DNA of 64,000 bases from Neoarius graeffei. Its lineage: Eukaryota > Chordata > Actinopteri > Siluriformes > Ariidae. A program made the translations under genes and the position numbers. Position 1 is the first letter of the stretch, and each line of letters starts with the position of its first letter. The notes below the pieces were generated by a model, which saw only the letters and a program-made list of their open reading frames with translations, had not been told where the DNA came from and did no database searches. The DNA lies in the NCBI RefSeq assembly GCF_027579695.1, contig NC_083571.1, forward strand, positions 71,981,779-72,045,778, written 5' to 3'. Below, in pieces: positions 25,777 through 63,970 of the stretch.

Positions 25777-26500
25777 TAATTTAATTTAATTAGCTTTGCC
25801 ATAGTGAGATATACATGTAGATACATTGTGGCTGGGAAACCACTACAGCTTACGCCAATTACAGGGGCCCCATTAGTGACATCTCACTTTATTTCATCTA
25901 ACAACTAACCTAAACAACACAGAACTATAAAAAGTGAACCAGCTTCATTAGCACCAATACTGCAACAAACCCACCTAATGTCACTCACCGGTGTCCTTCA
26001 GTTCATTAGAAAACAATCACAGAAGAACCCTCTCTCGCCCCCTGCTGCCTGCATTGAGTCATGACTAGTCATTTAAATCGTTCATTTAAACATATTTTCG
26101 TTGCCAGAATGTCTAATTTTTTGCTATTAAAAATAATTTTCTACCAAAAAAAACCTAAATGATAAGACTGTAGTTTAACTTACGACATAATATTTTTTAT
26201 TTATTTATTTACTCACCTAACACTCAAACATGCATCTTTTTAATTTTCCCTATAAAAAATGAGTGTCCTCTTCTCAAACTAATAGCGATTACAAAAAAAA
26301 AAGGCCAGAATACTCAAAGCCACAAATGTCTTCTACGAGTCTGCACAGTTAATTTTCTCTCAAAAACAAAATGTTCCTTGTTTCATGGTCGTTTTTACCG
26401 TGTTCTACCGATACAAAACCCACTTCCAGGAGAGACGTGCCCTCACAAACATGGCTGTTTCTCGCGTCCAAGTCCGCTTAAGTGATTGACACTTATTTTA
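25710..26500. repeat. Dispersed repeat R, copy 1
   Basis: Begins CCTCCTGATGCAGCAGCGCC and ends near TTTTAGCCAATAG. Related copies lie at 40611-41305 (gene B intron) and about 54750-55850. No coding potential; family unknown to me. Confidence 0.65.
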
Positions 26501-26522
26501 GCCAATAGAACTTATGCTCAGG

Positions 26523-26567
26523 TTTGAAAGTGGCCAATCAGGACATGATGATTGGCCACTTTCAAAA
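26523..26567. repeat. Inverted repeat, 18-bp arms
   Basis: TTTGAAAGTGGCCAATCA and its exact complement separated by 8 nt. Conserved at 55875-55918. The arms contain CCAAT/ATTGG, an NF-Y-type box on both strands. Confidence 0.85.
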
Positions 26568-26709
26568 GGGTGTGAAAAAAAGGAACAGAAAGCTGCAGCT
26601 CTTCCTCTCCTCTCTTACCTTCCCGTTACACAACCCCACCATCCCTTTGCTCCCCCTGGCGGGGGTTGAATGTAATAACAGCACATTTCAAGCAAGGGAA
26701 ATGTTATAT

Positions 26710-26785
26710 AGAGAGCGTGCACGTGACGTCACGAGGTCACGTGATATTTGTTTATCTGCCATCTTGGACGGCATGGCCGCGCATA
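26710..26785 (+). promoter_or_regulatory. Left-end promoter module of THAP element
   Basis: GCACGTGACGTCACGAGG contains overlapping E-box (CACGTG) and CRE (TGACGTCA); GGTCACGTGAT is a second E-box; GCCATCTTGG is a YY1-like site. Together they look like a housekeeping promoter for the THAP exon, which begins about 60 bp further on when the later insertion is removed. Confidence 0.5.
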
Positions 26786-26792
26786 GAACTTA

Positions 26793-27481
26793 TGGCCCTT
26801 TTCCACTACCCTTTTTCAGCTCACTTCAGCTCGCTTCAGCTCACTTCAGCCCGACACGGCTCGCGTTTCGACTACCAAAAACCAGCACGACTCAGCTCGC
26901 TTCAGCCCTGCTTAGCCCCTTAAACTCGCACCGTTTTGGAGTGGGGCTGAAGCGAGCCAAAGCGAGCCGACTGAGGCTGGGGGCGTGAGCAGACACTCCC
27001 CTGTGCACTGATTGGTGAGGAGGAGTGTCCTCACATGCCCACACACGCCCCGCGAGCGCGCTGGGATCTGTAAACACCGCAAACCCGGAAGGAGAAGAAT
27101 TACGAGAATTTCTGAAGCCTTATGCGCCGCCTCGCCTCATCTATACACTCTTGCCAGTATCTGTTGGCGTTGTCGGTGACAACAAGCCACAGCACCAAGA
27201 CCAGCAACACTAACGACTCCATGTCCTCCATGTTTATTGTTTACTATTCGGGTTGTGAGACTACCGCTTAAAAGATCACTGATGTCACTGTTTGCGCTGC
27301 TTAACGACATCACCTGACGTCCACCCACTTTTGCTAACTCCACCCAGTGTGTCCACCCACTTCCAGCCAGCACGGTTCAGCGCGGTTGTAGTCGAAATGC
27401 AACTCCAACAGCCCCGCTCAGCTCAACTCAGCACGGCACGGCTCAGCCCGACTCAGCCGTGTTTGTAGTGGAAAAGCGGCA
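26793..27481. mobile_element. Harbinger-like element, copy 2 of 3
   Basis: TTA at 26790-26792 and 27482-27484; ends TGGCCCTTTTCCACTACC and its TGCCGC-type partner inverted. The empty site is at about 56141 (GAACTTAGACG). Related to 23722-24410 and 59939-60621. Confidence 0.93.
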
Positions 27482-27532
27482 TTAGACGAACCCGTTCTAA
27501 TTATCAAGTGTGTGGGAGTAGATCTTTCGAGA

Positions 27533-27710
27533 ATGGTTATATCTTGTTCAGCATTTGGTTGTACCAATAGACAGGGCCAAAAGGAGGGCCTGTCATTTTA
27601 TAGATTCCCCGCAGACAAGGAGAGACGCGCAAAATGGGTGTCCACTGTGCGAAGAGAAAACTGGTACCCCAGTTATACCAGCCGAATTTGTAGTGAACAC
27701 TTCATATCAG
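27533..27710 (+). CDS. THAP zinc-finger first exon (element gene 1, unit B)
   Basis: From ATG at 27533 the frame reads MVISCSAFGCTNRQ, then LSFYRFPADKERRAKWVS, then RRENWYPSYTSRICSEHF and a donor gtaggtg after 27710. C-x4-C near the start and C-x2-H near the end, with the RFP and W between, define the THAP (C2CH) DNA-binding domain. THAP fingers occur in host transcription factors and in P, Kolobok and related transposases. The AVPTF-like tail of the domain would fall in the next exon, which I cannot find. The exon follows the left terminal repeat of the element directly once the later insertion is removed, so it is element-borne. Intact here; the unit C copy is broken by a SINE. Confidence 0.8.
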
Positions 27711-28257
27711 GTAGGTGTAATCTTCTAATTCAATACTCCTAGTACATCTGTTAAGTTTATTTTCGGACTGAATGATAACTGCATACTTACACTACGTTCA
27801 GACTGCAACCTGAAACGACCCATATCCGATTTGTTGTGAAATCCGATTTTTTTGTTAGGCCGTTCACATTACCAATTATATGAGACTTGTATGCGATCTC
27901 CAATATGAACGGAAAACGACCCAAAAGTGTCCCGCATGCGCAAATTGACACGTAATAAGCACATCTACGTAATACTTAAACCATGGGCGTAACCACCATA
28001 GGCACTGGGGGGGACATGTCCCCCCCAATATTGGGAAAGTACCAATCTGTCCCCCCCAATATTTGGTGTATTAAATCAATATGAGACAAATAATATGCCA
28101 TCCTGAACCATGGCTATATAATGAATCCTTCACTTGTTATGTCCGATTTACTTTCAATTTAGGAAGCACAGAGAAACAAACAAACAAAAAAAAAACTTTG
28201 CGACCACCCCCTATGATTGTGCACTTGGGTCAGCCCATGACGCCGTAGTGCGGCTTA

Positions 28258-29451
28258 GGCTGGGCAGACACTGTGCGATTTTTTCAATCACGGTATTCAG
28301 CTGCTGCTCACACTGTACGAGTGAATCGCAGGGGTAAACAGCACGCAGCTTACGATTCCTGTTCTCACACTATACGATCCGATGCTCGGATGCGATCTGA
28401 CTGCTCACACTGTACTTCCATATTTCCAGATTCTTGTATCCGGAACTGCAACGTGATATAGTGTTGTGACGTTCGCGAACGAACCGATTCTTTTGAACGG
28501 CTCCTAGGCATGAACGATGAGAACCGAGTCTCGAGCTGGGGGAGCCGTTCTTTCTGTCGTTCTTTTTCTGTACTGTGTTTCAGATAGTTTATAATGTTGT
28601 GTGATATTAATGATAATATTGTGGGAAAATTACTTTGCATGGACGTTCATTTAATTTATTCTATCGTCATTTTGTTTGTTCCATTTTTGTGTATTTTATT
28701 TATTTATCTGTTTTGTATCTCAGACTTAAATATTTTTGTAAAACAAGTGTTTTTCTATAAAATATTCTTGCGTTCTTGATAACTATGTTCTTGAGTGGGT
28801 TCTTTTTTTTTTTACAGAAAAGCTGTTCTGCATGGACATTCATTGAAGCCCTCATTGTTTTTTAATGGTTATTTATGAGCGTTTAGGGGTTACAATAATG
28901 TAAGTCTAGGTTACTTTATATAAAAGGTATGTCCAGAAATATTGATGTCACTGTCTAAGCAGAGGGATCTGGCTTCTTTAGACGCTGTCTTCTTAAAACT
29001 GAATAAATATTTAAAAAGAGCCAAATGAGCCAGTCTTTTGAACGGCTCTTTTCAAAGAACGGATCACAAAGATGCGGATCCCATCAAAGAGCCATAAATC
29101 CCATCTACGTGAAGAAGAAGAGGAGACCGGAAGTGCTGCTCAGTGTTTGTTTTCTCTTCCGTATCTGTGTTCGCGCATGTGCAGTGTGACAGGTTGAGGT
29201 AAATCGGCTCGTGACACTGCTTCAACAGTGCGATAGCCTCACGATGGGCGACCAGGATTTCAAACATGTTTGATTTTCATCTGATCGATCGGGAGGAGGT
29301 CGTGAGGTGTTAATCGCTTGTCGTTACCCCATGTATACTACACGATCCGAGACGCACGATTGAGCCAAAAATCGGCCCGATCTCCAAAATAGTCACACGA
29401 GTGAAAATCGTGTCAAAATCGGGCCAAAAATCGCACAGTGTCTGCCCAGCC
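28258..29451. mobile_element. Element with GGCTGGGCAGACACTG ends
   Basis: GGCTGGGCAGACACTGTGCG at the left, its complement at the right (ending 29451). The interior is dominated by a further element (about 28460-29100) with TTTTGAACGGCTC near both ends, a hAT-like pattern. No coding sequence recognised. Confidence 0.6.
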
Positions 29452-29616
29452 CAGTTTGGATACAAACTAAAAAAGCTGGTAGAAACCGTATGTAATGAAT
29501 GAAATCGAAATGTAAGCTGATCTCTTACAATACACCACAGCACTTGCGAATCCGCATGGGACTGAACTGAGATTCTCATTGAATACCCCTCCCACTGCCA
29601 ATGCTTTATCCCAAAA

Positions 29617-30655
29617 CAATAGAGGGATTTCACTGACGTCACCCGAAACCGGAAGTAAACAGACCCTGCGCCATTTTGGAAGACCAACAAACTCGTGATT
29701 AGGGGGAAATAACGGCAGCGGTATGTGAACCCACGAGAATAAAGTGGAGTGGCAAACGACTTAAATAAACAAATCTGAGCTGTTTTATTTATGATTTATT
29801 GGCCCAACAGTAGACTTGAAAGAAACCTGTGTGAGACTTGGCAAAAAACTGTGGATATAATGGATAAGTCTGTGCATGATCTGCGGACACTTTGAGGTAA
29901 GCAAACGCAAGAAATTCAGATTTAAAACATGCTAAATTGGCCCCAAGTTGATAACTGTATGAGGAGCAAGCCTCCCAGACTTCTACAATTTAATAATAAT
30001 AATAATAATTTAGGATGGTTTGGGGCTTGCTCTCCCTCCTATTATATAAATAAAGCATAGTTGTTGTGTAGGCATATATCATAAATACATATGTATAATT
30101 TGGATAAATTAACCTAAATTATGGATACCTTAATTGGAACAAAAAGTATTAATTTTTCAACTGAAAAGATATATTATTAAAAGATAAATATCAACAAGAT
30201 TACCTTGGCCATAACGATGTGTAGGTTATTCTTAATAACAGCTGTAATATCACGAACCAAGCCACTAACAACATAATTGTAAGCCTGTAGCCCTTTGTAG
30301 GCCTTCAAGTCATCAGCAGTATAGGCACTGGGTGTAAACAACAAATAGTTTACAATGTCTGGGTAGCAAACAGATGGCAGAATTGGTGTCCGGTCCTCCT
30401 TATGTTTCAATTCTCCCTTGCCCCGAGTCTTATCATATGGGTCAAACCCATCAATCACAGCCAGTTTCTCCACATACCGTGCCCTTTCTGCAGCTGGTAA
30501 TGTACTCACATAACCCGAATTATCAGCCATCGTGTCACTTCACTCTCGCTCGTAGTTTGTTTTATATTGTATGTATGTATGTACTTGAGGTCTTCCAATA
30601 TGGCGCCCTAACAAAATCTCGTGGTATGGTGACGTCACGCGGGGTAGCCCTCTAT
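29617..30655. mobile_element. Small element with AATAGAGGG ends carrying an inward exon
   Basis: Left AATAGAGGGATTTCACTGACG, right complement of AATAGAGGGCTACCCCGCG. Both ends carry TGACGTCA and a CCATNTTGG-type site. One first exon (30204-30530) reads inward on the minus strand from the right end. The resemblance to the ends of the 26709-36727 element puts both in one superfamily. Confidence 0.6.
30204..30530 (-). CDS. First exon of an element-borne gene, related to the 61331-61714 exon
   Basis: ATG at 30530, 109 codons, then a GTAATC donor in phase 0. It reads MADNSGYVSTLPAAERARYV, then PSVCYPDIVNYLLF, then AYTADDLKAYKGLQAYNYVV and ends IVMAKV. The (L/S)KAYK(G/S)L(Q/E)AY(N/K)Y(V/F)V pattern is shared with the exons at 36284-36642 and 61331-61714. 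I recall this N-terminus from large fish and invertebrate proteins that later carry a SWIM finger and YqaJ-like nuclease domain; that link is memory and no such domain is in this window. The function is unknown. Confidence 0.55.
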
Positions 30656-31140
30656 TCTTGAATGCCTCCATATTTTTGGGCCAAGATAAAGTCAATATAT
30701 TTTCTACAAAGTTCTATGTTGTTTTGACCTATTAACCAGGGTAATGCTCCTTTCTATTGCTTTGGTAGCCATTTTTTTGTAGCAATTTGGCATTTCTGCA
30801 TTTGTGTGTGTGTGTGTGTGTGTGACTAGCTCTGGTGTGACAGATTTTCATGCAATGTTTTACATGTTTTTTGTATGTTGTATTGCGTTACATGTTTTGC
30901 AGTTGCACATTGTGTTGTTTTGTGTTTTGCCTGATACACAATAAAAAAAACAAGATATAAATGTTAACATGTTCATTGGTAATTGTATTAATCAAAACAA
31001 TGTTCTAGATAAGCACATCTTTATCAATAGCCCCATATGAAAATTGCGCGAAATGCACTTAAAAATATTTTGGGAAGGGCTCAAATTTGGACACCCCCCC
31101 CCCCCCCCCCCCCAATATTTATACCATGGTTACGCCCTTG

Positions 31141-32166
31141 ATGTAAACCAAAAAAAAGCGCACTCTTCATGTTTAATGATTTCTTTTTTTTGTTTGTTTG
31201 TTTAATTATCTGGTTAGTGTTAAAGTGTGAGGTCTCGTGTGTGTTTTTGTTTCTGAACTGAAATGAAAACGTGTAGCCTGGTAACGAGGGTTGACTCCTA
31301 AATGTCTCTCTAATTTCTATATAAGTGCACTACATGTTACTAGGAAGTAATGGATTTTTAAACTCTATATAGTGCACTCGAGCTTCAGTAGGCAGTCATT
31401 TGGGATACGGCCGCTGTATTACCAAACTCTTAATTCAGGCTTAATAATTTGCACATATTTATTTCTTCATATTAATAAACTTTTTCTACATTTTTATAAA
31501 TATTTATTTAGATTGTTTATAGCCAGCTGAATTCTGCAACTTCTCTCAGCACTGGATCAAGGTGCAGAAACACCAGTGCAGTTTGCTATGGAGATGAGGC
31601 AAGACCTGGCGATGTGGTTTTTGTGGTGGTGGCGGAACTCACACAATAATCTGATTAATGTGGGCAGCAGACTAATGAGACCGAAGGTGTCAAATTACTG
31701 GAAATTTCCAGAACAATCTTATAATCTTGTAATACAGGATGGTTTAAGTTATAAATCAGTTATAGAAACTGTTTTATTTAATCAGGCTAACAGATCAACA
31801 TCCAGGTCTGTACCAAATCCACCATTAGCTTGATCAATTCTATAAAAGTCTATTTAAATTCTGAAAACTGTACAACTGTTGTTGTTTTCCACCAAAGAGG
31901 CGGGATTAGCCAACGCAGAATAGTGACGTTTGTCTCTTGCTGATGACGTGTAGGTCGCATGAATGCGACCTGTCCGGTCAGACTGCAGTCGCATGTGAAA
32001 ATATCGGATATGCATCAGAATTAGGACCACATATCCAAGCGGCCTGGGTCGCATGTGAAAAAATCGGATCTGTGTCGTTCAGATTGTCAATAACAAATCG
32101 GATACAGGTCGCATTTGGGCAAAAAATCGGATATGGGTCGTTTCAGGGTGCAGTCTGAACGTAGTC
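31141..32166. other. Right arm of Harbinger-like element, no gene
   Basis: AT-rich, with a plus-strand frame from about 31576 (MRQDLAMWFLWWWRN) of no recognisable family. Nothing else seen. Confidence 0.4.
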
Positions 32167-32630
32167 TTAGAAACTAGACAGTACAGTGTTTGTGGCCGTC
32201 AGTCTGCTTGATCTCTAACGTTTAAAATGGCTATGCCTAGCCCTACTACCCTGGCCTAGTCTGACGATGTTTTATCTTTTTGGCTCATATATGCCTTTGA
32301 AAGGCTAATCCATAGTAGGGACGGCGAAAACTAAAAAAAATCTTGACCGACCACCGAGCCTCAGTAGCCGGTTCGGTTAACCTATGAGTTTAAAGGATAT
32401 GGGACATGGATTTTTTTCTGGGCATAATTATGTATAAAGCACATAAGAAATGCCATCTAAATCACTGCAGGGCGTCAAAAATGTGAAAATCATCACATTA
32501 TTCAAGTTTTTTTATACATCAGCGTAAAACAAGGATTCGTTAATGAGCTAGGTGGTCACGTGACCCGTGACGTAACAAAAACTTTCCAAGGAGCCAGCGC
32601 TTGGGAATCTAATGTAAACAGGTTACCGAA

Positions 32631-32821
32631 ATGGACACCATCGACAGTGATATTACCGATGTTTCACAGAGATGTGAAGTTAGACCCTATCAATTCGAAC
32701 CGATAGCTGGAAATTCACATGAACATAGATCTTGTTACTCTGACGGGTCAGATGATTCTGAGAGTGAGGGTTCATTCAATCCCCATGAAACTGAAAGCGG
32801 TCGGCTCGATAACACTTCCTG
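32631..32821 (+). CDS. First exon of a P2X7 C-terminal (ballast) domain-like protein
   Basis: ATG at 32631, then MDTIDSDITDVSQRCEVRP, YQFEPIAG, an acidic Ser-rich stretch (SDGSDDSESEGS) and GRLDNTSW at a gtaagtt donor in phase 2. In fish proteins that share the zinc-binding C-terminal domain of P2X7, a Y-x-(F/Y)-E-P block and an (N)T-x-W immediately before the first Cys cluster are usual; the Cys-rich exon would come next but is absent. It starts about 90 bp from an E-box/CRE pair in the element end. A sister exon with YLYEP lies in the element at 39364. Family call is from memory. Confidence 0.55.
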
Positions 32822-33257
32822 GTAAGTTAAAAACAATTCTGCTCAAAGGCTAATGATCTGTTGAAAGAAGTATTATTTTTGTATCATACATTGAAAGTTC
32901 ATCATAGATCTAGCTAAAGTCCGTTGCAAGCTATTTTTTTTTTGCTGATATTTTTCGAGATTGATTGAGATACAATGCTTCCAGAGTCCATTTACAGAAG
33001 TAAAAGCAAAACAGTAAACGATAGATAATAAAATTACATAAAATAAATGGGGAAGAAAAATAATAAGAATTAAACAATAGTAGAAATAAAATATAGAATA
33101 ATAAAATGAAATAAAAGTTTAAAAAAAACTCTTCTACAACTTCACCACAACTCTTCGATTCGGTACGTAAACAAAGAAGGACAGATATAAGAGTAAATGA
33201 GTCAGAATTATGATAATCAATAATTGATACACCCAAAATTATAATACTAATCCTTAC

Positions 33258-33617
33258 CTCGGCTTTCAGACGCTTAGTGAATGCACCTCGTGGTGGCCGT
33301 AGCACTTCTGGTTTCACTCCGTCGTCTTGTTCCTGAATTGGGACGTTGGGAACGGCTCCATCTTTAAGTAGCCTCTTAAATTTGGCTTGGCAATTAATTT
33401 CGTTCAGTACCTGAGTATTAATGTTGAAAGAATCCTCTGTGAAATGGTCCGAACACAGTTTGTGGGAAACAGTAGGTGCAAAGTTTTTTCTACGGCAGTA
33501 GTGAGCCCACACTTTCCTCAGCTTCGGGTCCTTGGGGAATGCAAAAAAACTTACTCCAGGGCATTTCTCATTGGAATTATTGCAACCATAAGCAGCACAA
33601 TACACCATGATGTCCAA
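33258..33617 (-). CDS. THAP-domain first exon in TTAA element
   Basis: ATG at 33617 (or 33608), 120 codons, ending phase 0 at a GTAAGG donor (complement at 33252-33257). MVYCAAYGCNNSNEKC, then FFAFPKDPKLRKVWAHYCRR, then LCSDHFTEDSF give the C-x4-C ... C-x2-H zinc ligands, the FP and W of a full THAP domain, followed by a linker ending PPRGAFTKRLKAE. The frame beyond the donor is intronic. It reads inward from the right end of the element and is the likely DNA-binding part of a transposase or its regulator. No catalytic domain follows here, so the copy is non-autonomous. Confidence 0.82.
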
Positions 33618-33970
33618 TGTACTTTAAAGACTATAAAAACAATTTTCTTGTCATCCACTTCTCCATTCATCTACCCGCTTGTGCTGTGCCCGAAAGTTTT
33701 TGTGACGTATGATCACGTGACAGCGGCTCTTCCGGTTGTAGAAAATGCATATCGGAAGTCGAGCAGAAATGCCATATAATCATCACGAATATAACGATTT
33801 TGCTGAATTTAATAGATGATTTTGTATTTGTTGATGCAATTAATTCATATTTTTAATGGAAAGAAACTGATATAGCGTGCTTTTATGTTTCATGTCCCAT
33901 ATCCTTTAAACAGGGATGCAAACAGCGGATGCGCCTTTTTCACGGCTGAATCGCGCAGATCCGATTTTTT

Positions 33971-33989
33971 TGGGGGGGGGGGGGGGGGG
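33971..33989. repeat. Poly-G run
   Basis: About 19 consecutive Gs after a T run; unit C has a shorter run near 61042. Confidence 0.9.
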
Positions 33990-34059
33990 CGTTGGAGTGT
34001 CTGAATAATTTCATCAGAGTAAATTCTGTATTAAAATCACTAAATAAGCAAATGGCACA

Positions 34060-34180
34060 GTCCATGAAACATGGGAAGTATGAGAAGAAAACAGTAAATC
34101 AGAAAGCTGCGCACGTTTTTGCGGATTTACTGTTACTGATTTACTGTTTTCTTCTCATACTTCCTATGTTTCATGGACTG
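34060..34180. repeat. Large inverted repeat in the THAP element (unit B)
   Basis: Left arm AAACATGGGAAGTATGAG... and right complement ...CATACTTCCTATGTTTCA: about 41-bp arms with one mismatch around a spacer that itself contains ATTTACTGTTAC. The unit C version (about 61122-61253) has longer arms and a different centre. Confidence 0.85.
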
Positions 34181-34287
34181 AGTTTAGATTTCGAACATTC
34201 CTGCGATAAAACGTCCTGCATAGTCTCTTTATGATAAACGTCTTAATGCCACTTACCCGTGAGGTTATCAAGTAGACATTCTTCTTC

Positions 34288-36283
34288 CAGGGTTCCCGCG
34301 GGGTCTAAAAAAGTCTAAAATGTTAAATTTTAGGCCTTAAAATGTCTAAAAAACACACATTTTCATCCCAGGTCTAAAATTTAATTTATCCAAGTCTAAA
34401 ATTCTTACATCCGCTCAGTCCGTTCCTAGAAGTGCCTGCAAAACATTAATAAAAAAATGTGCCGGTTGCGTTGTTGTCTGCCTGCTAAAAAACTTCAATC
34501 ACCAATGATCGCGGCAAGTATGCAACGGTCCAGTTTGTCCACTACGCCTACCGTAGTTCTACCTTCTAAGTTCCCGCCGAGTTTATGCAGTCTGTGGCAG
34601 TCAGAGAAGGTTAGCGGTTGTGTTGGCAGTGCCATGAAGAGTGTGGATAGCGCGTCAAATAATAGTGAGTAAAATGGGAAAGTGTCAGTTTAATGAAGCT
34701 TGGCTTGAACGTGAAGAATTTTGAAACTGGTTAGAAGCCGCAGCAGGTGATAGGTATGCGGCTCGCTGCAAAGTCTGCAGGAAAATAATTCAGTTGGGGA
34801 CTTTAGGCATGAAGGCCCTGGAGTCCCACGCTAAAGTTGGAAAACATCAGATTGCTGTGAAGAGTTCGCAATGTTGCCAGCTGATCTCAAGCTTTTTGTC
34901 AGTATCCCAGCCAACATCGCTGCCTGATCCAGCTGTTCAACATTCGCCAAATAACAGTCAGGCGACTTTCGGGTCCACAGAGACGTCAAAAGCTGAGGTA
35001 CTTTGGATTCTACACACAGTGACCTCTCATCTATCATACAAGAGCAGCAGCAACATTAACGGCCTTTTCCAGGCAATGTTTCCTGATTCTACGATTGCCA
35101 AAACGTTCGCCTGCGGACCTAACAAGATCGCCTATATTGCAAGATTCGGCCTGGCAGACTTTATAAAAAGAGAGCTGGTGAAGTCAATTAGCGGCCAGTA
35201 TGTGCTAATGTTTGACGAGAGCTTCAACACATCGACCAAATCCAAACATCTAGACCTCCACATTCGTTTCTGGAGCAATGGAGAGGTGCAGTCGCGTTAC
35301 ATGGACTCTCAATTCATGGGTCATGGAACCACACAGGACCTTCTGATGCACATACAAGTAAGTGAGCTGTATAAACAAGTGTTTTTTTACGTCGAAAAGG
35401 TGGGACTTAAGTTTGCCCGTGTAAGCTGTGTTCTGCTCACACTCTCTTGATAACTTGCTACCTCCACGGGGAAAATGTCCATTAGTAATATGTTTTGTGT
35501 GTAATGTAATGTGTTAAGTGCTAATCTTTTTCATCAGTGAATTGGAGAATGTGTAAATATGTGAATGAATTGATTTCTACGTGTAGATTTCTTTGTTTAA
35601 TGGCGTGTAGTGTGCTGAGTTGTTGCAGTTTTGCTCATTTTCCACCTTTCAACTCAGCTTTTAAGAAGCAAGGCTCCTCTCATAAAAACGAGTTTATTCA
35701 GTGTTAAAGCACTGGGCAATTGACATACAGTATGTCACCCTGTATTCATTTTGTGTTGGGCATCATTTCCCACAGTTGTTCAGTGGTCATTCAGCGCCAT
35801 CTGCTGATCACTAGTGGTATGTATCACTAGAAATTGTCTTCTACTTGATTGTCAGTTTGACATTTACAGACGCAATACAAAATTACATTGTTTTTGAGAA
35901 TTGAACTGATTTTTTGGTCGGTTTTTTTGGGGGGGAGGCTGTAATCCTTCAGGTTGGTCAATCCGAGGAACTTGGATACTGTATAGATTGTGTGCATCAC
36001 TCTATTGTCTTGTACTTTTGTTGCTATGTGACATAATGTACTAATGTTGTACTAATGTTGCCATATGACCTAAATAAGCACACAATCAGTTTGTATCCCT
36101 GATAGTCAGTTTACCAATACAAATGACTTTGTTTTGAGAATTGAACTCGATTGTCTTTTTTTGGGAAGGGCGGGGGTAGGGCAGGTTGTAATTCTTCGTG
36201 TTGGTCTAAAAAATTTTCATAATGGTCTTAAAAAGTCTAAAAAAGGTCTAAAATTTAACTTACTGAATCCTGCAAGAACCCTG
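34288..36283 (+). mobile_element. hAT element, CAGGGTTC ends, absent from unit C
   Basis: Left CAGGGTTCCCGCGGGGTCT, right complement of CAGGGTTCTTGCAGGATTC. Both ends are followed inward by AAATTTTA-type sequence. The filled site interrupts the exon that is continuous at about 61360 in unit C. The flanking duplication (TTCTTC / TTCTTT) is imperfect. Confidence 0.88.
34674..35365 (+). pseudogene. hAT transposase N-terminal exon with in-frame stop
   Basis: From ATG at 34674: MGKCQFNEAWLEREEF, TGA stop, then NWLEAAAGDRYAARCKVC RK and GMKALESHAKVGKHQ, a BED-type C2-H-x-H finger, followed by the transposase (TFACGPNKIAYIARFGLADF, LMFDESFNTSTKSKHLD, SRYMDSQFMGHGTTQDLL). A donor-like GTAAGT follows HIQ at about 35360. 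The DESFN block holds the first catalytic Asp of hAT enzymes. No further catalytic exons lie in the element, so it is defective by both stop and deletion. Confidence 0.82.
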
Positions 36284-36649
36284 TTCTTTGGAACCTTCCA
36301 GAGGTATAGTTGGGTTACCCATCCCGCAACAAAATATTTATAAGCTTCCAGGCTCTTGTAAGCTTTGAGGGCTTTGCCAGTGTAACACAATTCACGATTA
36401 ACAAGAAAATTGTAAATGTCGTGGTAGGCCAGATCGGGCAAATCGCTGGCACCGCAGCTCCGAATTTCCCTGAACAAGGATTGCGGCAAGTTGTACGGAT
36501 CTGCAATCCCCAACCTGGAACACTTTTCCACGTAACGCTGCCTCACGTCACCTTCAAGATGCTGAACAAACTTAGATAAGTAATCGTGCGATGTAGATGG
36601 GGTATTTTCCGAATTTTCTTGGGGATTACTCCCTGGATCCATTACGCTC

Positions 36650-36727
36650 GCGCAAGGTAAACAATCTTGATGCCGTCCAGTATGGCGGAGTATACGCGGA
36701 TGGGTCACGTGACTGCACATCCTCTAT
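36650..36727 (-). promoter_or_regulatory. Right-end promoter module of THAP element
   Basis: Reading inward on the minus strand: TATAGAGGATGTGCAGTCACGTGAC (E-box inside), then CGCCATACTGGACGGC (degenerate YY1-like), then the ATG of gene 2. The same layout is at 61725-61800. Confidence 0.45.
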
Positions 36728-37089
36728 AGGTTTGGATAGTTCTAAAGATTTCGTGTGAAAACTGCCGTGTAAAATTTGTAAATCTTTATCTGTCTGTTTC
36801 AAAATTTATACACATTCTGTTAAGATGTTTTTGAATCAAGAAATGTAATTTTTAGACGATTTGGTCTCTCAAACCCTGTTCTACACTAAGTGAATAAGCT
36901 CAGTGTTAGAAGTCTGATGGATCTGTGTGGAGAGAGTTGTGTTTATGAAGGTTTATTCTGACAGCAGGAAGTGAATCATTTAACAACAAGTTGAACGAAC
37001 GAGTCTTTAAGAGTCACTTCACAGAATCATTTGGCCTCCATCAGTCACATTATTGCTGACAAAATCAAAAGCCAGAACGAGACAGCAAA
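36728..37089 (+). promoter_or_regulatory. Probable promoter and 5' UTR of gene B
   Basis: Follows the THAP element directly and is nearly identical to 61801-62161 upstream of gene C. ACAGCAGGAAGTGAATC (36961 on) contains an ETS/PU.1-like GGAAGTGA, common in leukocyte promoters. No clear TATA box. The element boundary only about 360 bp upstream means the element's bidirectional end could influence the gene. Confidence 0.5.
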
Positions 37090-37595: not shown

Positions 37596-37974
37596 GGTGG
37601 CACAGTGGTGTAGTGGTTAGTGGTCAGCGCTGTCGCCTCACAGCAAGAAGGTCCGGGTTCGAGCCCCGTGGCCGGCGAGGGCGTTTCTGTGCAGAGTTTG
37701 CATGTTCTCCCCGTGTCCGCGTGGGTTTCCTCCGGGTGCTCCGGTTTCCCCCACAGTCCAAAGACATGCAGGTTAGGTTAACTGGTGACTCTAAATTGAC
37801 CGTAGGTGTGAATGTGAGTGTGAATGGTTGTCTGTGTCTATGTATCAGCCCTGTGATGACCTGGCGACTTGTCCAGGGTGTACCCCGCCTTTCGCCCGTA
37901 GTCAGCTGGGATAGGCTCCAGCTTGCCTGCGACCCTGTAGAAGGATAAAGCGGCTAGAGATAATGAGATGAGAT
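37596..37974 (+). mobile_element. V-SINE in gene B intron 1
   Basis: Target duplication GTTCCTGCTTG at 37585-37595 and 37975-37985. The same insertion is in gene C (62634), so it predates the B/C duplication. The A-box region has a short internal duplication (GTGGTTAGTGGTCAGCG). Confidence 0.95.
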
Positions 37975-38449
37975 GTTCCTGCTTGTAAATAATTACAGAA
38001 ACTATTCCGTCATTAAACTTCACCAAAACCTCCATGATCAGCTTTCTGCCTTTCAGACTGTGACTTTAAAAGACACACAGCTGAATTTAATGCAGAATAA
38101 AAAAATTACACATATTTACATTGTGTAGATTTGTTTTATATATAACCTGTTGTGTGTATATTTATTTTTCATGCTTTGTTTTGTGTTTTGAGATTATCAG
38201 CTGAGGTTTTTCTAAAGTAGATGATGATGATGGTGATAATAATTATCGCCATTATTATGGCATACTGCAGGCTCAGCTGTTTGTAAATGTTTTTAGGTGT
38301 AATTAGATTGTATTCAGCACAAAAAATAACTTAAGCACCTCATATGATACACACAAAAAAATGGAAGTGCAGTTGAATACATTTTCCACTCAATGTAGTA
38401 AACTGGGGGATTTTGTTAAGATGTAAATCAGTACACTTTAGACCTGTAT

Positions 38450-54749: not shown

Positions 54750-55857
54750 TCCTGATGCAGCAGCGCCCTCTAGTGGGACTGCCGCTGAACCCGGAACGAG
54801 GGCATTTTTTTAATTTATTAATTTAATTTAATTTGCTTTGCCATAGTGAGATATATATGTAGATACATCATGGCTGGGAAACCACTACAGCTTACGCCAA
54901 TTACAGGGGCCCCATTAGTGACATCTCACTTTATTTCATCTAACAACTAACCTAAATAACACAGAACTATAAAAAGTGAACCAGCTTCATTAGCACCAAT
55001 ACTGCAACAAACCCACCTAATGTCACTCACCGGTGTCCTTCAGTTCATTAGAAAACAATCACAGAAGAACCCTCTCTCGCCCCCTGCTGCCTGCATTGAG
55101 TCATGACTAGTCATTTAAATCATTCATTTAAACATATTTTCGTTGCCAGAATGTCTAATTTTTTGCTATTAAAAATAATTTTCTACCAAAAAAACCCTAA
55201 GAACCAAGTTATCTTTTGAAATTTTGAAAGCAGTAATAATGTGCATTAGAGGTTCACGCACTCCTTTCTTTAAAAACAATGAATATGAATTTTTATTGGA
55301 TTTTACTGTTAATGCTAATCTTGCTGATATTAGATAGGTTTTTTTGTTTTGTTTTTTTGTTGTTTTTTTCCAGTTTTGTTTTTTATTTTATAATTTTTAT
55401 TATTTTTCTTTGGTAATTTGTAAATATGGTGTTTTTAATTCTTAAGAGTTTATATATATTGTAAATTAGATTTTTATCAAAGAAGAGGATGAATAATAAA
55501 AACCCCTAAATGATAAGACTGTGTAGTTTAACTTATGACATAATGTTTTTTATTTGTTTATTTACTCACCTAACACTCAAACATGCATCTTTTTAATTTT
55601 CCCTATAAAAAATGAGTGTCCTCTTCTCAAACTAATAGCGATTACAAAAAAAAGGCCAGAATACTCAAAGCCACAAATGTCTTCTACGAGTCTGCACAGT
55701 TAATTTTCTCTCAAAAACAAAATGTTCCTTGTTTCATGGTCGTTTTTACCGTGTTCTACCGATATAAAACCCACTTCCAGGACAGACGTGCCCTCACAAA
55801 CATGGCTGTTTCTCGCGTCCAAGACGGTTAAGTGATTGACACTTATTTTAGCCAATA
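54750..55857. repeat. Dispersed repeat R, copy 3, with an insertion
   Basis: Collinear with 25710-26500 except for the extra block 55197-55503. Confidence 0.7.
55197..55503 (+). mobile_element. Probable short retroinsertion, unit C only
   Basis: Flanked by AAAACCCTAA and AAAACCCCTAA; ends GATGAATAATAAA just before the second flank, like an A-rich 3' end. T-rich interior. Unit B near 26147 is empty. Possibly the 5'-truncated tail of a LINE or mRNA. Confidence 0.6.
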
Positions 55858-56190
55858 GAACTTATTCTCAGGTTTGAAAGTGGCCAATCAGGACATGATG
55901 ATTGGCCACTTTCAAAAGGGTGTGAAAAAAAGGAACAGAAAGCTGCAGCTCTTCCTCTCCTCTCTTACCTTCCCGTTACACAACCCCACCATCCCTTTGC
56001 TCCCCCTGGCGGGGGTTGAATGTAATAACAGCACATTTCAAGCAAGGGAAATGTTATACAGAGAGCGTGCACGTGACGTCACGAGGTCACGTGATATTTG
56101 TTTATCTGCCATCTTGGACGGCATGGCCGCGCATAGAACTTAGACGAACCCGTTCTAATTATCAAGTGTGTGGGAGTAGATCTTTCGAGA

Positions 56191-56748
56191 ATGGTTATAT
56201 CTTGTTCAGCATTTGGTTGTACCAATAGACAGGGCCAAAAGGAGGGCCTGTCATTTTATAGATTCCCCGCAGACGAGGAGAGACGCGCAAAATGGGTATC
56301 TGCTGTGCGAAGAGAAAACTGGTACCCCAGTTCTCATCTCATCTCATCATCTCTAGCCGCTTTATCCTTCTACAGGGTCGCAGGCAAGCTGGAGCCTATC
56401 CCAGCTGACTACGGGTGAAAGGCGGGGTACACCCTGGACAAGTCGCCAGGTCATCACAGGGCTGACACATAGACACAGACAACCATTCACACTCACATTC
56501 ACAGTCAATTTAGAGTCACCAGTTAACCTAACCTGCATGTCTTTGGACTGTGGGGGAAACCAGAGCACCCGGAGGAAACCCACGCGGACACGGGGAGAAC
56601 ATGCAAACTCCACACAGAAAGGCCCTCGCCAGCCCCGGGGCTTGAACCCAGGACCTTCTTGCTGTGAGGCAACAGCGCTAACCACTACACCACCGTGCCG
56701 CCTACCCCAGTTCTACCAGCCGAATTTGTAGTGAACACTTCCTATCAG
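56191..56748 (+). pseudogene. THAP exon interrupted by a SINE (unit C)
   Basis: ATG at 56191 with the same frame as 27533: MVISCSAFGCTNRQ ... ADEERRAKWVSAVRRENWYP S, then a SINE with target duplication TACCCCAGTT, then STSRICSEHFLSG to the donor gtaggtg. The SINE separates the two zinc-ligand pairs, so no THAP domain can be made from this copy unless the SINE is spliced out. Confidence 0.85.
56333..56702 (-). mobile_element. V-SINE in THAP exon
   Basis: TACCCCAGTT at 56323-56332 and 56703-56712; empty in unit B (27663-27674). Confidence 0.95.
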
Positions 56749-57425
56749 GTAGGTGTAATCTTCTAATTCAATACTCCTAGTACATCTGTTAAGTTGATTT
56801 TCGGATTGAATGATAACTGCATACTTAGAAACTAGACAGTACAGTGTTTGTGGCCGTCAGTCCGCTTGATCTCTAACGTTTAAAATGGCTATGCCTAGCC
56901 CTACTACCCTGGCCTAGTCTGACAATCAGGGGTGTAGCACAAAATTCTGGGCCCTATGCACAAGCAGTGGCCATGCCCCCCCAAAAAAGCTCAGCAGTTA
57001 ACAATGCTGAAAGTATCTAACAACAAGGGCGTACTACCAGTCCAGTCAGTTATGTAGCCACACATTAATCTAACAACTTTTAAAATGAATAAAAAACCCT
57101 AATCACAATACTTCACTGAATCTTTGTTTTATTTGCAGAATGATTAAAAAGTTGTAACAGTAAATGCCACCATAGGTCACCAAACATAATAGGCCTGCAT
57201 GAAAATTGAGCACCTTTGCATTGGGCTGAAGAGAACAGATTTTTATCAAGTAGCTTATTTATTACATAAAAGAAAAATGCCATTTCCAGATTTCTACATT
57301 AACAAAATACTTCCTTTAGAATGAAAGGTAAACAAAACTTGACTCTCTTGTCATTTTTCATTTTAAAAAGGGCAAAAAGAAAACAGGCTTCCACAAAGTG
57401 CTAAACACTGGAATTTATACCCCAG

Positions 57426-58026
57426 TTAGTGCCCACTGGCGGGTCTTCTTGGTGGCAAAATCATTGATGAGGTCCTTAAAGTCCAGTTTTCTTGCCTCTC
57501 AAGAATCATTCTATTCTTTTCTATTTCTGTCTGTATTTGTTTCTGAATGTGGCCATCAACTCCTGTTCCAGACAATAATGAATGCTGAAGCCTTTTCCAT
57601 TTCAAATAGCATTCCTTATGAGGCATGTTTGTCTCGTGTCCTGGTAATTTTCTGTACATTTTTTGCCATTTAATGTGTGATAATTTCACACCATCCAAGC
57701 AGTTGAGAGCACTTTTAGATGGCTTTTTCAGCTCGTGAGAAAAAAAGAAGGCATGGGATGCAATACAGAATCTCTGCACTTTCACTATAGATTAGCCAAT
57801 CTCTTTTGATTTTCTCACGGCCATTGACCGACTTTGCAAATTGAAGGTAGTTAGGAAATGGTTTCCCTTCCTTGTCTTTTGCTGTAATTTGATTCGTCTT
57901 TTCTTTGCTTGCCAATCTGCGTACTATTGTGTCTCTCTCTTCACTGGTCAACTTCTCTGGCCATAGTGCTGGATCCTCTGGCTTGCACTCCTTGGCACTG
58001 CCCTGACTACTCTTCATCCCTTTCAC
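57426..58026 (-). pseudogene. hAT transposase, TTF/ZMYM1-like N-terminal region, frameshifted
   Basis: Minus strand from about 58026: CKPEDPALWPEKLTSEERDT, KPFPNYLQFAKSVNGREKIK, RDWLIYSESAEILYCIPCLL F; near 57783 the frame shifts and continues FFFSHELKKPSKSALNCLDG, WQKMYRKLPGHETNMPHKEC, YLKWKRLQHSLLSGTGVD. CIPC.LF and H...C are ligands of the TTF-type zinc finger found before hAT domains in ZMYM1-like proteins. The catalytic part is missing. Confidence 0.75.
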
Positions 58027-58868
58027 TTCTCAGAACCTTCTCTGCTTTCACTTCCTTCACTTGCATCATCCTCTATCACATCTTCTCTATCTACCTGGAC
58101 AGATCCCTCTACAAGCATGAAGCATATGATATTAGCAGGCAATGTAGCCTAACTGATGTGATTGAACATGCTTAATATATAAATATTTTGTGTAAAACTT
58201 CCTCAAACTTCATATATTCATTTGCATCATAAAAAACTATGTGGCATTTTACTTTTCTTATGGATGTGACAAAAATGTAAACTTTTAGTCTCTTATTCTA
58301 ATTAGACTATAGCCAAACATAGGCTTCAGTAAAACACAGAGCATGACTTTAGTGTTGCTTAACACATTCCAGTAAAAATAGCTAAAATTATGTGCTTTCA
58401 TTTTAAACTAAAGGCTCACCTTGTCTCAAATCCCCAGTATCAGAGGATGAGGGGTCTGTTGCTGCATCCCCCTCTGTGACGGTCTCTGAAACTGAGTGCC
58501 ATGCGTTTCACAAGTTAGCTTTGCTACTAATTTGACAACCTATCCTTATGAACCTAGGACATTGAGACTAAATTAGGCTATTAGCCTAATTATATTATGG
58601 CCCAATAATAAATATTAATTTAATTTTTGATTAGTATACTATTGCAATGCAAACAAAAAAGGCATCATGTTCTTTCTAATTTTGTGTTGTGCAGTTTTTA
58701 GCACTGACAGACAATCACGGTGGTATTGAAGCATTTATAACCGTGGGTGTTCATTTAATGTAGGCTATTTGCTTTCACATTTGGGCTCACCTTTTTTTGG
58801 GAAAGAAGTTTGTGAGCAGTTGCTTTCCCTCATTTCTTTTTTTGTCTCTTTCCTGCCTCTCTTTTCGT

Positions 58869-59751
58869 CAGGGCCGCGTTAACCCTTGCCGAGGCCCTGG
58901 GCAGACACCCCCCCGAGGCCCCACCCCCACCTGTTGTCAGCTGCGCTCAGCAAATTCACCCCCTCAGACGTGCCTGTCTAACTAGACACAGAAACTTAAA
59001 TAATGACAGTGGCACAATTAGAAATACTATTGAACGATAAAATTTTATATCCATCAACACCTATTTAATCAAGAAAAAGCAATGGTGAAATAGGCAATTG
59101 CATGGTGAAAAAATCCATCAGACATCACGGTTAACAAGTCTGGTTAACTAAAGTTTAGCTTCAAGAAGCCTTTGAATGAGTGAGTCAATGAACAACATGT
59201 CAAGAACATAACCTAGGCCTACAACAGTTTCCTTAGTATTCAGAACATTCATTTGGTATATAAGCGTTCGTTTTCATTTTGGAATCCAGGCGACTTTTAA
59301 CTTGTGAAAACAAAGAGCGATAACAAAGAAAGAAAAATATCTTGCTTCTCAGAAATAAATCTCAAAATGTTAGGCTATGTGAAACATTTCATCCTTTCAC
59401 ACACGTAATGTCCCAAACAGCAGTGGCACACAGCTTTGCGCATTCAGTTTGACAGCCATGGGTCAACTTACAAGGGCACCTTCCTACTTTTCTGGAAAGC
59501 GAAGTCATTAATTAAATCCTTGAACTCAAGCTGGCGTAGCGTGTGAAGACATGGTGGACAGTGATCATATTGACAATGACGGGTGATTTATGCGACGGGA
59601 CAAGGTGGGCTTCCTTACGGGTAGCGAAATGCATCAAAAATGTTCAAATATGATCAAAACTTATGAAAATATAGTTTCATATTTTCCGATCTCGCTACCT
59701 CCGAGGCCCTGGGCAGCTGCCCATGAAGCCCATTAGGATAGCGCGTCCTTG
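58869..59751. mobile_element. Short hAT element nested in the 56937 hAT
   Basis: CTTTTCGT at 58861-58868 and 59752-59759. Left CAGGGCCGCGTTAACCC, right complement CAAGGACGCGCTATCC. Both ends contain GAGGCCCTGGGCAG. No transposase. Confidence 0.9.
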
Positions 59752-59938
59752 CTTTTCGTTTCTGAAAATGGGATTTTATTTTCTTGTGCATCATCTTCCA
59801 TAGCACAGACAGCCTACAATGCGCATGCGCTGCTTCAGCAAAATGAACGTTATGCTAAATGCGCCTAGTTAAAAAGCCTGGTGAAAGCGGACTAAACCAT
59901 TTCGTGCAAAGGGGGGGAGGCTGTCCCCCAGACACTAA

Positions 59939-60621
59939 TGGCCCTTTTCCACTACCCTTTTTCAGCTCGCTTCAGCTCACTTCAGCCCGACACGGCTCGC
60001 GTTTCGACTACCAAAAACCAGCACGACTCAGCTCGCTTCAGCCCTGCTTAGCCCCTAAAACTCGCACGGTTTTGGAGTGGGGCTGAAGCGAGCCAAACCG
60101 TGCCGAGTGAGGCTGGGGGCGTGAGCAGACACTCCCCTGTGCACTGATTGGTGAGGAGGAGTGTCCTCACATGCCCACACACGCCCCGCGAGCGCGCTGG
60201 GATCTGTAAACACCGTAAACCCGGAAGAAGAATAATTACGAATTACGAGAATTTCTGAAGCCTTATGCGCCTCGCCTCATCTATACGCTCTTGCCAGTAT
60301 CTGTCCGCGTTGTCGGTGACAACAAGCCACAACACCAAGACCAGCAACACTAACGACTCCATGTCCTCCATGTTTATTGTTTACTATTCGGGTCGTGAGA
60401 CTACCGCTTAAAAGCTCACTGATGTCACTGTTTGCGCTGCTTAACGACATCACCTGACGTCCACCCACTTTCGCTAACTCCACCCAATGTGTCCACCCAC
60501 TTCCAGCCAGCACGGTTCAGCGCGGTTGTAGTCGAAATGCAACTCCAACAGCCCCGCTCAGCCCGACTCAGCACGGCACGGCTCAGCCCGACTCAGCCGC
60601 GTTTGTAGTGGAAAAGCGGCA
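59939..60621. mobile_element. Harbinger-like element, copy 3 of 3
   Basis: TAA before and TAT after; ends as in the other two copies. MEDMESLV frame on the minus strand near 60370. Confidence 0.88.
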
Positions 60622-61121
60622 TATATGTACCGTAGGCTAGGACACACAATTCAATCCATTAATCAAACGATTTATTTACCCAAAACATTGCATTTACATT
60701 AGTTAGCAACATATATTGTGATCTTTAAATGGTATTGATATTTAAAGGAAAATAAAATTACAGACTCCTCAAGGACCCTCCCCCCACTTGGGGCCCTGGT
60801 AACTCAGTCCCCCTTTCCTCCCCACTACGACGCCCCTGCTGACAATGTTTTATCTTTTTGGCTCATATATGCCTTTGAAAGGCCAATCCATAGTAGGGAT
60901 GGCAAAAACTAAAAAAAAATCTTGACCGACCATTGAGCCTCATTAGCCGGTTAAAGTCGGTTAACCTATGAGTTTAAACAGGAATGCAAACGGCGGATGC
61001 GCCTTTTTCACGGCTGAATCGTGCAGATCCGATTTTTTTTAGGGGGGGGCGTTGGAGTGTCTGAATAATTTCATCAGAGTAAATTCTGTATTAAAATTGC
61101 TAAATAAGCAAATGCCACAGT

Positions 61122-61253
61122 CCATGAAACATAGGAAGTATGAGAAGAAAACAGTAAATCAGAAAGCTGCGCACATTTTCGCGGAAGCTGCGCAAATGTG
61201 CGCAGCTTTCTGATTTACTGTTTTCTTCTCATACTTCCTATGTTTCATGGACT
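61122..61253. repeat. Large inverted repeat in the THAP element (unit C)
   Basis: Arms of about 53 bp, GTCCATGAAACATAGGAAG... to ...AGAAAGCTGCGC and exact complement, with about 23 nt in the centre. Lies in the intron of element gene 2. Confidence 0.9.
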
Positions 61254-61330
61254 GAGTTTAGATTTCAAACATTCCTATGATAAAACGTCCTGCATAGTCT
61301 CTTTATGATAAACGTCTTAATGCCACTTAC

Positions 61331-61714
61331 CCGTGAGGTTATCAAGTAGACATTCTTCTTCGGAACCTTCCAGAGGTATAGTTGGGATGCCCATCCCGCA
61401 ACAAAATATTTATAGGCTTCCAGGCTCTTGTAAGCTTTGAGGGCTTTGCCAGTGTAACACGATTCACGATTAACAAGAAAATTGTAAATGTCTTGGTAGG
61501 CCAGAATGGGCAAATCGCTGGCACCACAGCTCCGAATTTCCCTGAATAAGGATTGCGGCAAGTTGTACGGATCTGCAATCCCCAACCTGGAACACTTTTC
61601 TACGTAACGCTGCCTCACGTCACCTTCAAGATGCTGAACAAACTTAGACAAGTAATCGCGCGATGTAGATGGGGTATTTTCTGAATTTTCTTGGGGATTA
61701 CTCCCTGGATCCAT
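61331..61714 (-). CDS. Element gene 2 first exon (unit C), intact
   Basis: ATG at 61714 and 128 codons to a GTAAGT donor (complement 61325-61330), phase 0. MDPGSNPQENSENTPSTS, FVQHLEGDVRQRYVEKC, IADPYNLPQSLFREI, ASDLPILAYQDIYNFLVN, GKALKAYKSLEAYKYFVAGW, then LYLWKVPKKNVYLITSR. Shares the D-(I)-Y/V-N-(Y/F)-L ... LKAYKxLxAYxYxV spine with 30204-30530. Upstream in-frame ATGs within the terminal repeat are possible. I recall similar N-termini in large fish proteins with a YqaJ-like nuclease; not demonstrable here. Function unknown. Confidence 0.65.
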
Positions 61715-61800
61715 TACGCTCATGCAAGGTAAACAATCCTGATGCCGTCCAATATGGCGGAGTACACACGTGCGGGTCACGTGACTGCACATCCTCTATA

Positions 61801-62633: not shown

Positions 62634-63019
62634 GGTGGCACAGTGGTGTAGTGGTTAGTGGTCAGCGCTGTCGCCTCACAGCAAGAAGGTCTGGGTTCGA
62701 GCTCCGTGGCCGGCGAGGGCCTTTCTGTGCGGAGTTTGAATGTTCTCCCCGTGTCTGCGTGGGTTTCCTCCGGGTGCTCCGGTTTCCCCCACAGTCCAAA
62801 GACATGCAGGTTAGGTTAACTGGTGACTCTAAATTGACCGTAGGTGTCAATGTGAGTGTGAATGGTTGTCTGTGTCTATGTGTCAGCCCTGTGATGACCT
62901 GGCGACTTGTCCAGGGTGTACCCCGCCTTTCGCCCATAGTCAGCTGGGATAGGCTCCAGCTTGCCTGCGACCCTGTAGAACAGGATAAAGCGGCTAGAGA
63001 TAATGAGATGAGATGAGAT
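62634..63019 (+). mobile_element. V-SINE in gene C intron 1
   Basis: GTTCCTGCTTG at 62623-62633 and 63020-63030; the same insertion event as 37596-37974. Confidence 0.95.
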
Positions 63020-63970
63020 GTTCCTGCTTGTAAATAATTACAGAAACTATTCCGTCATTAAACTTCACCAAAACCTCCATGATCAGCTTTCTGCCTTTCA
63101 GACTGTGACTTTAAAAGACACACAGCTGAATTTAGTGCAGAATAAAAACATTACACATATTTGCATTGTGTAGATTTGTTTTATATATAACCTGTTGTGT
63201 GTATATTTATTTTTCATGCTTTGTTTTGTGTTTTGAGATTATCAGCTGAGGTTTTTCTAAAGTAGATGATGATGATGGTGATGATAATTATCGCCATTAT
63301 TATGGCATACTGCGGGCTCAGCTGTTTGTAAATGTTTTTAGGTGTAATTAGATTGTATTCAGCACAAAAAATAACTTAAGCACCTCATATGATACACACA
63401 AAAAAATGGAAGTGCAGTTGAATACATTTTCCACTCAATGTAGTAAACTGGGGGATTTTGTTAAGATGTAAATCAGTACACTTTAGACCTGTATGAAGAA
63501 ATAGAGTACAGTAATGTAATTATACTATAGAGTTGTGTGTGTGTGTGTGTGTGTGTATACACACACAAAGACCTTCTCAGGTGCAGCTTTGCGAATGTTT
63601 TCTGGTCATCGTTATTACAGGACAAACTCCGACTGTTTCTGAGTGAATTGGAGAGTTGCTGTATATTTGTTGGCTTTTGTGCAGATTTTATTTCGGAATA
63701 TAACAGTAAAAGGTGTTAAGTGTGTGTAGGATTTCAGACATTGTTTCACTTCAGAGCTGCAGTTGCACAAAATAAAATTGTGTCAAGAGAATCAGGAAAC
63801 ATATACATGTGTTCTGAGACTCTCAAGTGAAATTAGTCAATAATCAGAAACCTGATGATGATGATGGTGATGGTGGTTTTATTCTATTTGAATGATTTAT
63901 AGCAATCGACGAATGCATTGCATTTATGATGACTCTTCTATGAGACTCTCAGGTCTGTTTTCTCTTTCAG

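Follow-up and report, generated by a model that had tools for sequence, protein, structure and literature searches.

A catfish transposon with two inward-facing first exons is a probable deletion derivative of an ISL2EU-type element

A question raised by the 64,000-nucleotide stretch of the Neoarius graeffei genome analysed here (the window; NC_083571.1 of assembly GCF_027579695.1) is how one mobile element, referred to as unit B, comes to carry two inward-facing first exons, one encoding a THAP module and the other of no evident family; namely, whether it is a complete two-gene unit, a chance pairing of two elements or the remnant of something longer. The evidence set out below makes unit B very probably an internally deleted, nonautonomous member of an ISL2EU-type (PHIS/Harbinger-like) family. 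Longer copies of such elements encode a transposase with THAP, helix-turn-helix (HTH) and DDE domains on one strand and a protein with a YqaJ nuclease domain on the other, and the two exons in the window correspond to the first exons of these genes.

Most of the length of unit B is due to later nested insertions (Table 1). The majority sequence of its family, 994 bp long, matches unit B with 97–100% identity at 26709–26792, 27482–27754, 34177–34287 and 36284–36727, and the middle of the unit holds further sequence of the element's own. The ends are imperfect inverted repeats. Both contain the E-box CACGTG and the YY1-like site CCAT(C/A)TTGG, and the left end also contains the cyclic AMP response element (CRE) TGACGTCA. 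The left exon is a THAP exon (Pfam, E = 1.8e-15). The right exon (AYKSLEAYKYFVAGW, hereafter the AYK exon) is a 117-amino-acid open frame that starts at 36642 on the minus strand; it matched no Pfam family above the cut-off, and the PDB offered no convincing match either (best E = 0.38). An Rfam scan of 26400–37000 gave no match. An earlier note, made from the sequence of the window, had described inverted ends with E-box, CRE and YY1-like sites, a plus-strand THAP exon inside the left end and an unrelated minus-strand exon inside the right; all of this stands except that the CRE is confined to the left end.

The same pair of ends recurs across the genome. A search with an 89-bp left-end query gave 1,315 first-look candidates, of which the best 40 were scored; among the matches listed, 38 of 41 are 100% identical to the query and three are 99% identical. 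From 30 loci cut out around left ends (L009–L062 denote stretches cut from the same genome), 24 contain both ends within the approximately 1.5 kb available on each side. The remaining six are the window itself (L009), four loci in which both ends were found in longer stretches (L011 in L043, L012 in L039, L017 in L040 and L035 in L041) and L021, whose longer stretch, L044, is without a right end. Both ends were present in 12 of the 15 longer stretches, with L044, L046 and L053 as exceptions. Nineteen of the 24 two-ended copies are 985–1,060 bp long and five are 1,213–1,553 bp. The 19 shorter copies, which define the 994-bp majority sequence, have a mean pairwise divergence of 4.8%; they were chosen by their best left ends, and identity at that end is therefore biased upward. 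An exact 38-bp pattern (TATA plus left end) has 302 genomic matches compared with none for the reversed-pattern control, which places the recurrence beyond chance. The earlier proposal, that this is a mobile element whose two first exons face inward and whose ends would co-occur elsewhere at short distance, is thus borne out, mostly at about 994 bp. That a THAP-exon element and an unrelated AYK-exon element landed side by side might be entertained from the window by itself, which provides a single independent example, but is refuted by the co-occurrence of both ends in 24 of 30 loci with the exons in the same order, and by three families with DDE and YqaJ domains that share this arrangement, and we give it practically no credence.

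The window contains a second unit with the same ends and the same two exons, unit C, which the earlier note had counted as a further case. The anatomy is shared, but there was no second insertion: sequence outside the element matches between the two units as well, at 99% both on the left side (26475–26774 versus 55825–56124) and on the right (37963–38262 versus 63008–63307), and the right flanks align at 95.2% over 1,732 columns. Units B and C are a single insertion copied by segmental duplication, and unit C was accordingly rejected as independent support. The duplication is in tandem, about 30 kb long, and spans 7400–64000 (roughly 7.4–38.9 kb versus 39–64 kb); its halves differ by insertions and can be used as built-in empty sites.

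To what genes do the exons belong? The YqaJ family (PF09588) has 71 matches in the genome, six of which were read near the start of the gene (L054, L055, L058, L060, L061 and L062). L058 was picked because a right-exon match, from a protein search in which the best 150 of 24,833 first-look candidates were scored, sits some 5 kb from its YqaJ match, in the same orientation. Together, L058 and L059 (C17:66572650-66585600) form a longer copy of the window element's family. Its transposase strand encodes THAP (1.2e-16), HTH_Tnp_4 (2.7e-16) and DDE_Tnp_4 (4.4e-34) domains, and on its opposite strand the AYK exon is followed by a YqaJ domain (3.8e-10); a PHD-like match on that strand stays below the cut-off. 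The exons of unit B share 88.7% (THAP, L059) and 95.7% (AYK, L058) amino-acid identity with those of this copy. The exons thus continue into a transposase and a nuclease, as had been anticipated. Two elements of other families have the same order, in which DDE_Tnp_4 follows a THAP exon on the plus strand and the AYK exon is succeeded on the minus strand by a CxC...CxH stretch and YqaJ: L056+L054 (THAP, 1.8e-9; DDE_Tnp_4, 1.6e-48; YqaJ, 3.7e-22) and L057+L055 (THAP, 8.6e-11; DDE_Tnp_4, 1.7e-52; YqaJ, 1.2e-22). Homologues of the window's AYK exon occur in L054, L055, L060 and L062, at 34–44% identity to it; in a separate alignment with other YqaJ-type elements the values are 36–43%. The formerly unassigned exon is thereby identified: in ISL2EU-type transposons it opens the YqaJ-nuclease gene as its first exon. 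Full-length parents were sought among the longest left-end loci, where reading the open frames of L040, L046, L047 and L049 by eye revealed no DDE or YqaJ domain; L040 holds an insertion of long-terminal-repeat type, L046 and L047 have reverse-transcriptase-like frames and L049 has nothing recognisable. Separately, six strong YqaJ matches lie on the same strand, 0.4–0.6 Mb apart, at C17:2201887-4524720, which suggests large-scale duplication of a YqaJ element.

Comparison with the longer copy indicates how the short forms may have arisen. Positions 351–994 of the 994-bp form are contiguous at the right end of L058+L059 (96.6%) and positions 26–357 match its left side (92.5%); the two segments overlap by 7 bp (TTAAATA), which marks the deletion joint. 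The form shared by units B and C keeps approximately 0.5 kb corresponding to the stretch between the THAP and DDE exons of the longer copy, which the 994-bp form lacks, and then resumes at position 446; because this parental stretch was retained, it represents a separate, second deletion form. The earlier estimate of about 1.4–1.5 kb without insertions therefore holds for the longer variant in the window, but the commonest form is about 994 bp. The parent would have carried two convergent genes: one reading inward from the left end and encoding the THAP, HTH and DDE transposase, and one reading inward from the right end and comprising the AYK exon, a SWIM-like CxC...CxH stretch (SWIM-like being a reading by eye), the YqaJ nuclease domain and a PHD-like stretch. 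Internal deletion would then have joined the two ends, with the terminal repeats, first exons and splice donors retained. The window copy kept its THAP exon and the YqaJ domain was deleted. Since the short copies encode no catalytic domain, they were presumably moved in trans by proteins of the parent, as is standard for nonautonomous transposons.

Table 1. Features of the window discussed in the text (positions are those of the window)
Feature	Position	Strand	Remarks
Unit B, probable ISL2EU-type nonautonomous element	26709..36727		Own sequence about 1.4–1.5 kb; remainder later nested insertions
Left terminal repeat	26709..26792	+	Begins TAGAGAGCGTGCACGTGACGTCACG; E-boxes, CRE TGACGTCA, YY1-like GCCATCTTGG
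Right terminal repeat	36643..36727	-	Read inward ATAGAGGATGTGCAGTCACGTGACC; E-box CACGTG, YY1-like GCCATATTGG
Predicted first exon of transposase gene (THAP-HTH-DDE; C2CH THAP module)	27533..27710	+	ATG at 27533; donor GT after 27710
Predicted first exon of YqaJ-nuclease gene (AYK exon)	36284..36642	-	3' side broken by insertion
Target-site TATA, left	26707..26710		Duplicated part AT = 26708–26709 if the ISL2EU rule applies
Target-site TATA, right	36725..36728		
Nested nonautonomous element, second ISL2EU-type family	29621..30653		Homologous exon on minus; AT flanks, A/AT/T context
Nested Kolobok-like element	32394..33905		TTAA duplication; THAP exon on minus, unrelated exon on plus
Unit C	56060..61799		Family matches 56060–56334, 56703–56792, 61251–61799

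The target site is also informative. Outside GAGAG.../...CTC, the adjoining four bases read TATA in 38 of 39 distinct left ends (AATA in the other one) and in 27 of 30 distinct right ends (TGTA, TATG and GATA in the other three). To read empty sites, the flanks were joined and set against related sequence that lacks the element. A single TATA is present in all five aligned units for L013 and in L049 as the empty site of L016; the L025 empty sites have TATA in one of three cases and variants in two, and the comparisons for L026 and L036, as well as a second one for L016, are too diverged to read. Because readable empty sites hold a single TATA, duplication of TA is ruled out and the target duplication, which the earlier note had suggested looking for at empty sites, is AT up to TATA. 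The flanks of L034, AATA to the left of the element and TATA to its right, point to AT, the duplication of ISL2EU, although this is a single case that could reflect mutation. An alternative is a Tc1/mariner-type element with a terminal inverted repeat (TIR) beginning TAGAG and a TA duplication, as the 22 of 24 two-ended copies that read TA/TAGAG...CTCTA/TA might suggest (L025 and L034 are off by one base), but this identity is refuted by the TATA empty sites and by the DDE_Tnp_4 transposase with HTH_Tnp_4 in the longer copy, and its probability is negligible. As regards insertion preference, L022, L023 and L038 occupy the same position in one repeated host sequence, in both orientations, and L026 and L036 share a site in opposite orientations; a hotspot or an inversion is possible in both cases.

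ISL2EU elements of the PHIS superfamily, found in animals including teleosts, encode a THAP/HTH/DDE transposase and a YqaJ protein, insert at A/AT/T with duplication of AT and have TIRs that usually begin with GG (PMC4482050, PMC9179366). The longer copy of the window family has the same coding capacity, and the nested ISL2EU-type element fits the A/AT/T target. The layout, which the earlier note did not recognise as described, is therefore in print as far as coding capacity is concerned; term searches of PMC4482050 gave no mention of promoter, orientation, opposite, SWIM or PHD, and those of PMC9179366 no mention of convergent or opposite orientation. PIF/Harbinger elements have a similar DDE transposase and a two-gene layout, but their second gene is Myb/SANT and their target TWA (PMC4482050), as opposed to YqaJ and TATA in the window family. 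Kolobok elements belong to a different transposase group and duplicate TTAA (PMC9587614), unlike the window family with its near-uniform TATA. The window copy itself differs from autonomous ISL2EU elements in being a deletion form. Several observations weigh against the ISL2EU assignment. The family's TIR opens with AGAG or GAG where ISL2EU repeats usually have GG, a trait that is not strictly defining because the source says 'usually', and its target is TATA rather than AATT. The longer copy is degraded: insertions interrupt it, its frames are broken and contain stops, and at the left the outermost 25 bases do not align. No intact autonomous copy of the family was seen among the six of 71 YqaJ matches read near gene starts. 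Finally, the assignment is by domain content and layout.

A different possibility is that the short element works in its own right through its truncated THAP or AYK peptides, for example as a THAP-only repressor of the kind proposed for the KP elements of Drosophila. Both exons are open in the majority sequence, their splice donors are kept and a T-run/CAG acceptor-like site (again a reading by eye) follows the THAP exon. To evaluate this, substitutions were counted in the exon copies, with partial hits covering less than 95% of the exon and identical repeats dropped, and with assumed transition and CpG weights for the expectation. For the THAP exon, 30 sequences (4 of which have indels) yield 54 distinct substitutions, which divide into 16 synonymous, 34 nonsynonymous and 4 stop changes (expected 14.5, 35.3 and 4.2); the AYK exon has 116 in 36 sequences (5 with indels), which divide into 29, 85 and 2 (expected 36.2, 76.8 and 2.9). 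The exons drift much as a simple neutral model predicts, so detectable selection was rejected and the short copies look like passengers. Neutral drift is expected in any inserted transposon copy, so a functional source copy would be compatible with these counts; nevertheless, we regard a working short element as very unlikely compared with a nonautonomous deletion derivative.

Unit B is itself host to other elements. THAP domains occur in Kolobok elements, and the nested Kolobok-like element has a THAP exon (Pfam THAP, 9.7e-18) as well as E-box and CRE-like half sites within about 150–210 bp of its ends; unit C, with a single TTAA, is its empty site. The exon of the nested ISL2EU-type element shares 89% amino-acid identity with that of L054, an element with DDE and YqaJ domains, and no empty site was found for it. 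Between the left end and the THAP exon, at 26793–27481, lies a short high-copy element with a second copy at about 59940–60624; among the matches listed, 37 of 40 cover just its start, at 98–100% identity. The sequence at 34290–36275 is a further insertion with an open frame that, by eye, resembles a putative zinc-finger transposon protein.

To determine whether the motifs in the terminal repeats recur, we counted them in eight ends of four elements and compared the counts with 300 shuffles (L054 and the nested ISL2EU-type element are one family). The CRE TGACGTCA occurs in 7 of 8 ends (shuffle mean 0.04, maximum 2), as does the YY1-like CCATNTTGG (mean 0.05, maximum 1). The window family's right end has an E-box in place of a CRE, and the L054 right end is without a YY1-like site. 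Positions are also similar: the CRE lies 14–18 bp and the YY1-like site mostly 51–53 bp from the terminus, with 34–37 bp between them wherever both occur. Beyond this set, L060, of the L055 family, has a CRE at base 16 and a YY1-like site at base 53, 37 bp apart; in L062, which belongs to another family, the AYK exon is preceded by an E-box at base 18 and by GCCATCTTG at base 42. The 9-mer GCCATCTTG is present in the window's left end and in the ends of L055, L060 and L062. At L062:690-860, ACGTCA and CGCCATATTGG stand ahead of a second THAP-like exon and may mark a further end with both kinds of site. The strength of the motif case lies in the retention of these sites between families with first exons that are just 34–44% identical. 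Set against it, CACGTG (2 of 8 ends; mean 0.42, maximum 2) and CCGGAAG (2 of 8; mean 0.11, maximum 2) do not clearly exceed chance expectation; both ends of L054, with termini that could not be defined, were located via their CRE, which biases the count (without them, CRE occurs in 5 of 6 ends and CCATNTTGG in 6 of 6); the families are related, so that ends are not independent and shuffles ignore shared ancestry; and in L061, one of the three further YqaJ loci, neither an AYK exon nor a full CRE was found within the fetched stretch, although a YY1-like site is there. The motifs could instead serve transposase binding.

The two start codons of the 994-bp form are set 133 and 86 bp in from the termini, each preceded by a CRE and/or E-box together with a YY1-like site. 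On this sequence evidence, it is plausible that each terminal repeat is the promoter of its own gene, and the repeats would probably double as inward promoters. In a competing explanation, the conserved blocks bind the element's own THAP or HTH proteins and the ends have no promoter, which the location of both sites within the transposase-recognised repeat would favour. The motifs sit just upstream of each first exon, and TGACGTCA matches the host CRE consensus, both of which count against it. So does the fit of the YY1-like site to the consensus GCCATCTTG quoted in PMC7481187, and the two roles can coexist, as at the YY1 site of ProtoRAG (PMC7481187); we consider binding without promoter function rather unlikely. 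ProtoRAG of the lancelet has two genes arranged tail to tail and TIRs that both show reporter activity; its TIR element TR5, GCCATCTTG, binds YY1 and affects both transcription and transposase binding, with YY1 lowering transcription and mutation of TR5 also lowering reporter activity (PMC7481187). Promoter activity in both terminal repeats of a two-gene transposon, part of the layout that the earlier note did not recognise as described, has thus been published for ProtoRAG. The window family is likewise a tail-to-tail two-gene transposon with GCCATCTTG in its left end, but ProtoRAG encodes RAG1/RAG2-like proteins and makes 5-bp duplications, as opposed to DDE_Tnp_4 and YqaJ here; because it belongs to an unrelated superfamily, any regulatory likeness would be convergent. 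We propose, tentatively and with more doubt than confidence, that ISL2EU terminal repeats carry a conserved cassette, a CRE or E-box at about base 14–18 and a YY1-like site at about base 42–53, that controls the pair of convergent genes and links recruitment of the transposase to the host factors CREB/CREM and YY1.

Overall, the analysis documents a nonautonomous family that is abundant in this catfish genome and exists in two or more deletion forms. The two-gene layout was already known, and the recurring CRE/YY1 arrangement across diverged families is the part for which no record was found in print; a search of 5.39 million papers found none with both ISL2EU and YY1. If the cassette proposal is correct, ISL2EU elements use the same YY1 9-mer solution as the unrelated ProtoRAG, and the arrangement would fit the testis-biased expression of ISL2EU in medaka (PMC9179366). 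If the cassette is a promoter, it would provide a simple account of joint expression in two-gene transposons and would represent convergence with the transposon group that gave rise to RAG recombination.

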